A stretch of DNA of 59,157 bases, from the NCBI GenBank assembly GCA_020721045.1, contig DYNN01000008.1, forward strand, positions 1 to 59,157. The letters are read 5' to 3'. Below are positions 5,686 through 10,603 of this stretch, piece after piece. Source of the DNA: Thiomargarita sp. (GTDB taxonomy: Bacteria > Pseudomonadota > Gammaproteobacteria > Beggiatoales > Beggiatoaceae). The notes beneath the pieces are model-generated. The model had not been told where the DNA came from. It was given only the letters and a program-made list of their open reading frames with translations, and ran no database searches. Each line of letters opens with the position of its first letter. The first letter of the stretch is position 1. The translations under genes were made by a program, and so were the position numbers.

Positions 5686-5792
5686 ACATCTTTCTACTCC
5701 AACTCTTCATAACAAAATGACCAATAGTGAGCACGCCGCATTTTGGACATTTCGCCCAAATAGCTGTGCCACATTTTTTGCCAAATATAAAA

Positions 5793-8354
5793 ATGTCTCG
5801 TTCTGAACAAGAATTATCACAACATACCCCCGTTATGCAACAATATTTGCGGATTAAAGCAAAATATCCCGATATGTTGCTATTTTACCGTATGGGCGAT
5901 TTTTATGAATTATTCTTTGAAGATGCCCAAAAAGCCGCACGATTACTAGATATTACCTTAACTGCGCGTGGCAAAGCCGGTGGACAATCGATTCCCATGG
6001 CAGGCGTGCCTTACCACGCAATTGAAGGCTACTTAGCCAAATTAGTACGACAAGGCGAATCAGCGGTTATTTGCGAACAAGTGAGCGATGCAGCAAGCAG
6101 TAAAGGGTTAGTAGAACGTGAAGTCGCACGGATTATCACGCCGGGCACTTTAACTGATGAAGCTCTTTTAGAAGAACGACAAGACAACTTATTAGCTGCC
6201 GTTCACAGTCAACAAACTGATTTATTTGGCATTGCGACCTTAGAACTTTCCAGTGGACGTTTTACCGTCATCGAAGTGCAAAGTTTATCTTTACTTGCCA
6301 GTGAATTAGCGCGCTTGCGTCCTGCAGAATTATTAATCAGCGAAACTGTAACATTACAACTTCCTCATGTTATATTTAAAAAACAGCCGGCTTGGTTTTT
6401 TGATTTACAAACCGCTAACCGCTTATTAACTGAACAATTTGGTACCCGCGATCTAGCAGGTTTTGGTTGTGAACATTTAACCGTTGCATTAGCTGCCGCG
6501 GGCTGTTTACTACAATATGCTCGTGATACGCAACGTGCAAGTTTGCCACATATTCAAGGTTTACATTGGGAACGACGTGAAGACAGTTTGTTAATTGATG
6601 CCGCCAGCCGCCGTAATTTGGAACTTGACAACGGTTTAGCCGGTAAATATGAACACACTTTAATTAACGTCATGGATCAATGTGCAACACCAATGGGTAG
6701 TAGAATGTTACGTCGTTGGTTACATCGTCCTCTCCGTACAGTAGAAATATTACAATATCGTCATCATGCAGTAGGTACTATCCTAGAACAACAAGCTTCC
6801 GCAACTTTATATCAACAACTTCGTGCTATTGGTGATATAGAACGTATTTTATCGCGAGTTGCCTTAAAAACCGCACGTCCACGAGATTTAACTCAACTGC
6901 GCACTGCGTTGGCTATGTTGCCCGAATTGCAGCAAACATTGACTACATTGATCAGCCCGCGCTTGCAAACTTTAGCGACTGAAATTAAAGAATTTCCCGA
7001 ATTATATCAATTACTTGAACGAGCAATTATTGAAACTCCACCCATGTTAATTCGTGATGGCGGTGTCATTGCCATGGGTTATGATGCAGAACTCGATGAA
7101 TTAAGGGGATTGAGTGAAAATGCTGGACAATATTTGGTTGCATTAGAAGCGCGCGAAAAAGAACGCACTGGTTTGACTAATTTAAAAGTCGGTTATAATA
7201 AAATACACGGCTATTATATTGAAATCAATCGGTTACATGCTGAAAAAGTACCTACTGATTACACGCGCCGTCAAACGTTAAAAGGCGCAGAACGCTATAT
7301 TACTGAAGAATTAAAGCAATTTGAAGATAAAATACTCAGTGCTAAAGAACGAGCGTTAAATCGAGAAAAATATTTATACGAACAATTATTGGATATTTTG
7401 TTAGATTCATTAAAAATATTACAAATTTGTAGTGTCGCATTGGCAGAACTTGATGTGTTACATAATTTTGCTGAACGTGCTGATACACTAAAATATTACC
7501 CAGTGACTTTTACGAATAAAGAAGAAATTGAAATCATTGAAGGTCGGCATCCGGTGGTTGAAGCCATACAAACAACACCGTTTATGCCTAATGATTTAAA
7601 ATTAGATAACAAAAATAGAATGCTTGTAGTGACCGGACCCAATATGGGCGGAAAGTCAGTCTTTATGCGTCAAACAGCTTTAATTGTCTTATTAGCACAT
7701 ATTGGTAGTTTTGTTCCCGCTCAACAAACGATTTTAGGACCGATTGATGGTATTTTTACCCGTATTGGTGCCAGTGATGATTTAGCCGGTGGGCGATCAA
7801 CTTTTATGGTAGAAATGACAGAAACAGCTAATATTTTACATAATGCAACCCGTAATAGCTTGGTTTTAATGGATGAAATAGGTAGAGGAACGAGTACTTT
7901 TGATGGCTTATCATTGGCATGGGCAACCGCTGAGTATTTAGCCCGTCATATAAGCGCATATACACTATTTGCTACCCATTATTTTGAATTAACACGTTTG
8001 CCAGAACAATGTAAAAATATTGCTAATGTACATTTAGATGTCATAGAACAGGATGAAAAGCTTATTTTTATGCATAAAGTGAAGTCTGGCGCGGCAAACA
8101 AGAGTTATGGTTTACAAGTTGCGTTGTTGGCAGGTGTACCAAAAAATGTGGTTAAACAAGCGCAATTACGCTTAAAACAGTTGGAATCTCAACGATTACA
8201 GACTGTGCCGCAACAGGATGAATTTATACTAGCATTACCCACATCGCCAGAAACCCCACATCCAGTATTGGCACAATTAAAAACCGTGTCTCCTGATGAT
8301 TTAACCCCCAAGCAGGCGTTACAAGTGCTTTATCAATTGAAAAAATTATTGTGA
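5793..8354 (+). CDS. mutS: DNA mismatch repair protein MutS
   Basis: Recognises base mismatches and small loops as a dimer and recruits MutL. The mismatch-binding Phe-x-Glu lies in the N-terminal GDFYELFF segment. The ATPase C-terminus has Walker A GPNMGGKS at residues 615-622, Walker B with the signature [12 protein letters not shown], and a helix-turn-helix dimer contact. The last about 25 residues match the tetramerisation tail. I chose the ATG at 5793 because the protein is then 853 aa, the E. coli length, and begins a few residues before the conserved [12 protein letters not shown] block. An in-frame GTG at 5727 would add 22 residues without family similarity. Neither start has a strong ribosome binding site. 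Confidence 0.97.
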
Positions 8355-9609: not shown

Positions 9610-9725
9610 AAAGTTTTCCAAATAATTCAGTTTATTTTAATTGGAACTATAGCGCAATAATTATCTCATTATCAAGATGGTGGATTGCGTTCTGGCAATT
9701 CTGAAGTTATCTTAACCTAATTTTC

Positions 9726-9809
9726 GTAGAGTGCATAAGCGTACGTCATACACCGATTTTTGGAACTTTCACATTTCTTGGTGCATGACGCTTCGCTTAT
9801 GCACCTTAC
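9726..9809. repeat. 84-bp imperfect palindrome, copy A
   Basis: Left arm GTAGAGTGCATAAGCGTACG... and right arm ...CGCTTATGCACCTTAC are inverted copies of about 30 bp with an AT-rich centre of about 25 bp. A second 84-bp copy of the same design lies at 43129-43212, so this is a dispersed repeat family and not a local terminator. Confidence 0.85.
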
Positions 9810-9889
9810 GAGCTTGTTGATTTTATCTTTTTAATTTGATCAATTTACGTCATAATCGTATTTTTTACTTTTCATTTTGGAGAAATGCT

Positions 9890-10603
9890 ATGCAATCCTC
9901 AAATCCTCAAATCCTCAAATCCTCAAATCCTCAAATCCTCAAATCCTCAAAAAGTAGCGTAAGAACCTTTGCGCGTTTGTCAAGCCTTGCCGTGATAGTT
10001 TCTTTTGGATGTATTTCTCAAGCTCAAGCGATTTGTCAGGTTGTTTTAGGTACAAACTGGAGCACTGCTAGTTGGTTCGGTTGCTCAAGTTCTCCCCCCG
10101 CCACCAGTGATGATGCTGCGGTCGGACTTAATCTCACCCTTAACCAAAATGTCACCGTTAACAGTCTCACTATCGACGCTGCAAGAACCTTAAATGCCAG
10201 TAGTTTCACCCTCACCCTAGCTGCCACCACACCGCTTATAGTAAATGGTACTTTCACCGCAGGCACTAGCACCGTGAAATTCAGTGATGCGGATCACACA
10301 GTGAATAGCAATATCACCTTCTATAACTTGCAATGGACAAACCCTATCACTGCACCGCGTACCATCACTATCAACGGTGCAATTACTTACACGGGGTCGA
10401 CGTTTAATCTAGGTGGTAGCTCATCAACCAATAAAGTAACCTTTACAGGAACTGGAAGCGTAAATCCCACTGTGACGCTAGACTATTGTACCAGTACGGT
10501 GACGGGGATTAATTGTCCGGTGGTAAATCCACCCGTTGCTGCTTCTATTGGACTTTCGCTCAAAGACAAACCGGTGATTTTTTCTGAAGAGTTGAAAGAA
10601 TAA
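9890..10603 (+). CDS. Exported protein with an 8-bp repeat tract in its 5' end
   Basis: Unknown function; I do not recognise a named domain. The ATG at 9890 has a GGAG at 9879-9882, 7 nt upstream, and gives 237 aa; the upstream in-frame ATG at 9836 has no such site. Right after the start lies the peptide SSNPQILK, repeated twice plus a partial copy and encoded by 8-bp DNA units. A signal peptide follows (RTFARLSSLAVIV..., cleavage near AQA-ICQ). The mature part is rich in Thr, Ser, Asn and Val with regular short strands (LTLNQNVTVNSLTIDA), which suggests a beta-helix or beta-sandwich surface or secreted protein. Four Cys occur in the mature part, two close to the N-terminus and two near the C-terminus. 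A change of one or two repeat units would shift the frame to immediate stops at 9955 or 9960. Confidence 0.7.
   Translation: MQSSNPQILKSSNPQILKSSKSSVRTFARLSSLAVIVSFGCISQAQAICQVVLGTNWSTASWFGCSSSPPATSDDAAVGLNLTLNQNVTVNSLTIDAARTLNASSFTLTLAATTPLIVNGTFTAGTSTVKFSDADHTVNSNITFYNLQWTNPITAPRTITINGAITYTGSTFNLGGSSSTNKVTFTGTGSVNPTVTLDYCTSTVTGINCPVVNPPVAASIGLSLKDKPVIFSEELKE
9893..9948 (+). repeat. Octanucleotide tandem repeat AAATCCTC, about 7 copies
   Basis: Six perfect AAATCCTC units occupy 9901-9948, preceded by one unit with a single mismatch (CAATCCTC, 9893-9900). The tract starts 3 nt after the A of the ATG and lies before the signal-peptide hydrophobic core. Eight is not a multiple of three, so only gains or losses of three units keep the frame. 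Confidence 0.97.

Follow-up and report, generated by a model that had tools for sequence, protein, structure and literature searches.

SSR contingency loci have been studied mainly in host-adapted pathogens and commensals, and the class of mechanism considered here is already known from the lic genes of Haemophilus and the opa genes of Neisseria. In the lic genes a CAAT tract lies just after the start codon, where it encodes an SINQ repeat. Described examples include the 5'-CAAT tetramer tracts of lic1A, lic2A and lic3A in Haemophilus influenzae (PMC3938747) and the CTCTT pentamers within the leader-peptide sequence of the Neisseria opa genes (PMC3745409). Octamer tracts are also on record: in H. 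influenzae biogroup aegyptius, GCATCATC units precede the hmwA gene (PMC3309571). Among the Beggiatoaceae, a family of 25 genera (PMC11172852), marine members carry intergenic TAACTGA heptamer repeats, for which a role in post-transcriptional regulation has been proposed (PMC4679880). Within the literature on phase variation and Beggiatoa, the excerpts of that paper (PMC4679880) and of a single-cell genome paper (PMC4853749) contain no start-codon tract of the kind described below.

The stretch of DNA analysed here, referred to as the window, comprises 59,157 nucleotides of a Thiomargarita sp. genome (contig DYNN01000008.1), and all features of the gene under study lie on its + strand. At 9890..10603 is a candidate phase-variable gene for a 237-aa protein predicted to be exported, whose ATG (9890-9892) is followed by one base and then by a perfect octamer array, (AATCCTCA)x7.25, that occupies 9894..9951 (58 nt, period 8) and leaves the gene open at 7 units. 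The SSR begins at base 5 of the ORF, its unit is not a multiple of three, and its 7.25 octamers lie above the cut-off of 3 or more repeats that PhasomeIt applies to 6-9-mers (PMC5953494). A sequence-only reading of this DNA had counted about seven octamer units after the start codon; the array is indeed perfect, but in the AAATCCTC register used there it consists of six full units with a partial one at each end, 7.25 being the count in the AATCCTCA register. Across 50 resamples drawn from an order-2 Markov model of the window, the longest period-8 run was 19 nt, versus the 58 nt observed, and a scan of periods 4 to 12 in the window returned nothing else longer than 20 nt. A search for this octamer in tandem yielded no second site, the window array being the only tandem AAATCCTC (at least two units) in the whole 3.39-Mb genome. 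For this family it is fair to call an octamer unusual, as the sequence-only reading did; outside it, SSRs with 8-bp units are on record, as the GCATCATC tracts at the hmwA promoters of H. influenzae biogroup aegyptius attest (PMC3309571).

Directly 3' of the tract is a stop trap, TAGCGTAA (9955..9962), in which TAG 9955-9957 and TAA 9960-9962 each close one of the two shifted frames. These stops had been calculated by hand, and a unit-number model covering 1 to 13 units bears them out: full-length protein is obtained only at 1, 4, 7, 10 and 13 units, so that only changes by three units keep the gene open and the current number, seven, reads through. In the model 8 units lead to a stop after 26 aa at TAA 9960 and 9 units to a stop after 27 aa at TAG 9955; 5 and 6 units likewise give an early stop. 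The modelled gain or loss of units thus produces premature stops, with one register in three open.

We consider it highly likely that this is a translational phase-variable (contingency) gene within a small family set that shares its heads, and on/off switching of the gene is a strong prediction from its sequence. Slipped-strand mispairing, which presumably takes place in living cells, would add or remove 8-bp units just after the start codon and so shift the reading frame before the signal peptide is reached; of the three registers, one would yield the exported protein, and in the other two translation would end within a few codons at the TAG/TAA trap. The frame model supports the phase-variable reading, as do the same octamer in a homologue from another genus, a shared leader on unrelated proteins, ON and predicted OFF copies, and an ON/OFF pair of poly-G genes.

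Relatives were sought in a set of 43 genomes of the family, representing 25 genera. Two metagenome-assembled genomes recur in what follows, namely G006 (Thiomargarita sp. SulCav_GS10_10_37_43, from a cave), which belongs to another genus than the window's own genome (G000), and G024 (Thiotrichaceae STC_44). The G006 homologue has 55-56% amino acid identity to the window protein and carries the same octamer, AATCCTCA, in the same place. The G006 assembly breaks inside this tract: contig C90 ends with 58 nt of it and contig C44 begins with 55 nt, and the overlap between the two is exactly 55 nt, as it is in two other pairs of G006 contig ends. An assembly graph of k=55 that contains an 8-nt loop would give this pattern, and some molecules would then carry one or more additional units; the break could also stem from another strain or organism that carries the same 55-mer. 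As far as sampled, the octamer is not a class-wide feature: a 24-mer of it had no match in 368 other genomes of the class. Three tandem AAATCCTC units were observed in an IMG/VR viral contig (L190, 11856-11879), the sole match among viral contigs.

Upstream of the start, a ribosome-binding site, GGAG (9879..9882), is situated 7 nt 5' of the ATG, and the arrangement GGAGAAATnnYATGCAATC is kept in G006 contigs C90 and C11 and is near-identical in C117. A looser ribosome-binding-site and start pattern was discarded as a leader finder, as it matched mostly ordinary genes. A second, out-of-frame ATG at 9885 lies 2 nt after the GGAG, probably too close to act as a start, and is without counterpart in C117 or C11. 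Translation could instead truly begin downstream of the tract, at TTG 9982-9984, which would make the tract irrelevant to expression; this TTG is in frame in the window and in G006 C44, C117 and C64, and could in principle begin a shorter signal peptide. Yet no ribosome-binding site precedes it, the positive n-region would be lost, CTG stands at that place in G024:C8, and the GGAG and ATG before the tract are kept in the G006 copies, all of which makes the TTG start very improbable. Further upstream, a 5' region (9813..9886) with an AT-rich, CATAAT-like -10 candidate at 9851-9856 matches the DNA upstream of a different gene, that of G006:C117, in a 74-nt ungapped local alignment of about 86% identity; because no consensus sigma-70 site was scored upstream of the gene on the + strand, the promoter of the tract gene is a putative one. 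The DNA that separates the tract gene from its upstream neighbour includes an 18-nt inverted repeat (9724-9811), whose arms are 89% complementary and lie 52 nt apart; it may be a small hairpin or a MITE-like element. The window also contains mutS (5727-8354), about 1.5 kb upstream of the tract; in other bacteria this mismatch-repair gene influences the stability of tracts, and its proximity here is probably a coincidence.

The rest of the signal peptide, SVRTFARLSSLAVIVSFGCISQAQA (9952..10030; residues 21-47, judged by eye), follows the tract, and the first 72 nt of this region are 96% identical in DNA to the G006 homologue. It is succeeded by a mature body (10031..10510) that is beta-strand-rich according to a fold model of low confidence, which places strands between about residues 88 and 208 and is confident only at about 130-210. 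A PDB fold search with this body, whose model is too poor to name it, gave no significant match, and the 237-aa protein matched no family in Pfam or NCBIfam. The protein ends in a C-terminal tail (10511..10600) that is common to unrelated exported proteins of the family (profile search, E 2e-15, this copy itself being a row of the profile).

The leader is not confined to this gene. A search of the 43 family genomes with the post-tract DNA TAGCGTAARAAC..TTTGCGCGTTTGTCAA, allowing up to 3 mismatches, found 5 sites (the window, G006 C44, C117 and C64, and G024:C8), versus 0 for the reversed control. All five are preceded by an AATC-type tract at the start codon, that of the G006 octamer gene being on C90, and the stop-trap motif TAGCGTAA is kept in these 5 leader copies, which come from three genera. 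The tract is AATCATCA x3.2 in C117, AATC x9.5 coding for SINQ in C64 and a short AATC in G024:C8 (STC_44), in each case with the trap directly after it. Two further tracts extend the series: AATCATGC x5 at the start of a gene in G006:C11, without a trap, and, in the window's own genome (G000:C15), a heptamer, AATCGTC x7.3 after ATGC, which is cut by the contig end before any trap; the other end of this contig was searched for and not found. About 266 kb of G000 was scanned for units of 2-12 bp, covering the window, three loci to which the tail search had led and further contigs chosen by number, C15 being one of the latter; the window octamer and this heptamer were the only two tracts above the cut-offs, both right after an ATG. 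Searching with ATGCAATC and a spaced AATC pattern gave no tandem loci beyond those named, and among 84,980 species genomes a similar leader pattern occurred only in Thiomargarita and STC_44 records, with records near the window possibly left out.

Throughout this leader family the tract unit is 4, 7 or 8 nt and never a multiple of three. The tracts are translated in the ON register, and the repeats could for that reason be taken to encode a functional peptide, an extended n-region whose variation in length is only tolerated. However, the encoded peptides are unrelated between copies (SINQ, SNPQILK, SNHQIIK, SSIVNRQ), a coding repeat would be expected in units of three, and OFF-register copies exist, so that a functional peptide is very improbable. 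As the tract peptides differ, it is therefore the frame change, rather than a peptide, that is kept.

The copies are not all in the same register. The body is read in the frame of the ATG in G024:C8 and G006:C11 (ON). In G006 C117 and C64 the peptide that starts at the ATG stops at the TAG of the trap, after 11 and 15 aa, respectively, with the ORF that follows unbroken as far as the C-terminal tail; on sequence grounds both are predicted to be in the OFF state. A related situation exists in a gene that ends in a tail of this kind and has a poly-G tract in its signal peptide; this tract is G8 and in frame (on) in G000:C146 versus G9 and out of frame (off) in G006:C79. Below the poly-G these two copies differ by dN ~0.24 and dS ~0.66, and the resulting dN/dS of ~0.36 indicates that the gene has been under selection as a protein. 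The ON and OFF copies were seen among different family genes, and the poly-G pair is one between genera. The OFF copies could be recent pseudogenes in decay; reversible switching explains intact but out-of-frame genes better. A G10 tract (L154, 17789-17798), apparently intergenic in G006:C1, is a possible promoter-type variable tract.

With respect to the described systems, the lic genes share with this locus an SSR whose unit is not a multiple of three and whose change in number switches the gene, and AATC is CAAT in another register, as the SINQ of G006:C64 illustrates. In contrast, the lic genes specify LOS enzymes that are not exported and that lack a common signal-peptide head or tail, and in the family described here the unit varies by locus; the window tract is an octamer, not CAAT, and precedes an exported body without a recognised enzyme family, which sets it outside the lic type. 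The opa genes are alike in forming a multigene set of exported proteins with an SSR in the leader region, each copy switching alone, but their bodies are homologous Opa beta-barrels and their unit is always CTCTT, whereas here the bodies are mostly unrelated, the unit varies, and the tract is 5' of the signal peptide proper. With another unit, and a protein that matches no Pfam or NCBIfam entry, the window gene is not of the opa type either. The hmwA tract is likewise an octamer SSR tied to the variable expression of a surface protein, but it is part of the promoter region, where changes in it would act on transcription and not on the reading frame. The TAACTGA repeats have in common with the window tract that they are short tandem repeats in the same bacterial family; they differ in being intergenic and non-coding, whereas the window tract is coding and has a different sequence.

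The heads and bodies of these genes appear to have had different histories. After the tract, the leaders of the window gene and its G006 homologue are identical at 71 of 78 nt (dS 0.17), versus 54% DNA identity and saturated dS in the bodies. The head is also a mosaic, since the window signal peptide matches G006:C44 while the 74 nt upstream match G006:C117, which encodes a different protein, and the window's own homologue (C90) has only a weak local match there. Near-identical leaders on saturated bodies, together with the mosaic upstream region, therefore point to heads that were recombined among genes or genera of the family, or to strong selection on the DNA; of these, recombination is probable from the sequence comparisons. 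The same mosaic heads, and the contrast between the leader dS of 0.17 and the saturated body, lend something to the idea of a repeat that is neutral or related to recombination, with the tract serving as a homology patch for head exchange and switching being incidental. Units that vary by locus (4, 7 or 8 nt) would nevertheless make poor homology patches, and neither the lack of any unit that is a multiple of three, nor the trap after the tract in five copies, nor the intact ORFs kept in OFF copies agrees with it; we rate the homology patch as unlikely.

The window gene belongs to a small set of exported-protein genes whose unrelated bodies are joined to a common head, which runs from the ribosome-binding site and start codon through the AATC-derived tract and the stop trap to the signal peptide, and mostly also to a common tail. 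As such heads sit on unrelated bodies, each with its own tract, several exported proteins would therefore switch independently. The window protein itself is presumably exported and probably located at the surface, where it may take part in surface variation, for example against phages or grazers. A further suggestion, which we hold as tentative and rather less likely to be right than wrong, is that of a modular phase-variation cassette in the Beggiatoaceae, whose head, taken here to include the 5' region and a tract of changeable unit, recombines between genera onto unrelated exported proteins with a common tail, possibly a sorting signal. If this cassette exists, an uncultured, free-living lineage of giant bacteria would be able to switch its surface as host-adapted pathogens do. 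As it stands, switching of exported proteins in the manner of pathogens appears to occur in a sulfur-bacterium lineage that is uncultured and free-living, which suggests that selection comes from phages, grazers or attachment and not from an immune system. The units AATC, AATCATCA and AATCCTCA moreover form a natural series for studying the origin and spread of such tracts.

The tail was defined by a profile of 31 positions, ..SAPIDL......YS.EI.LK, that was searched within the family and matches further exported proteins with unrelated bodies in G000, G006, G024 and G021. NCBIfam gave no match at the tail positions of seven tail proteins, and a sorting or anchoring signal would be our guess as to its function. 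An exported ubiquitin-like protein (L083, G006:C95) carries a version of the same tail and adjoins a contig end that itself begins within a further copy of the tail; its best NCBIfam match, rad23, is below the cut-off of that family. G006 also contains 10-mer arrays of up to 13 copies (AAAAGTGTTC, its rotations or complement) at L019 (5981-6018 and 6086-6219), L156 (11726-11839) and L163 (4901-4934), two of which lie just after ORFs, and a short ORF runs through the long L019 array itself.
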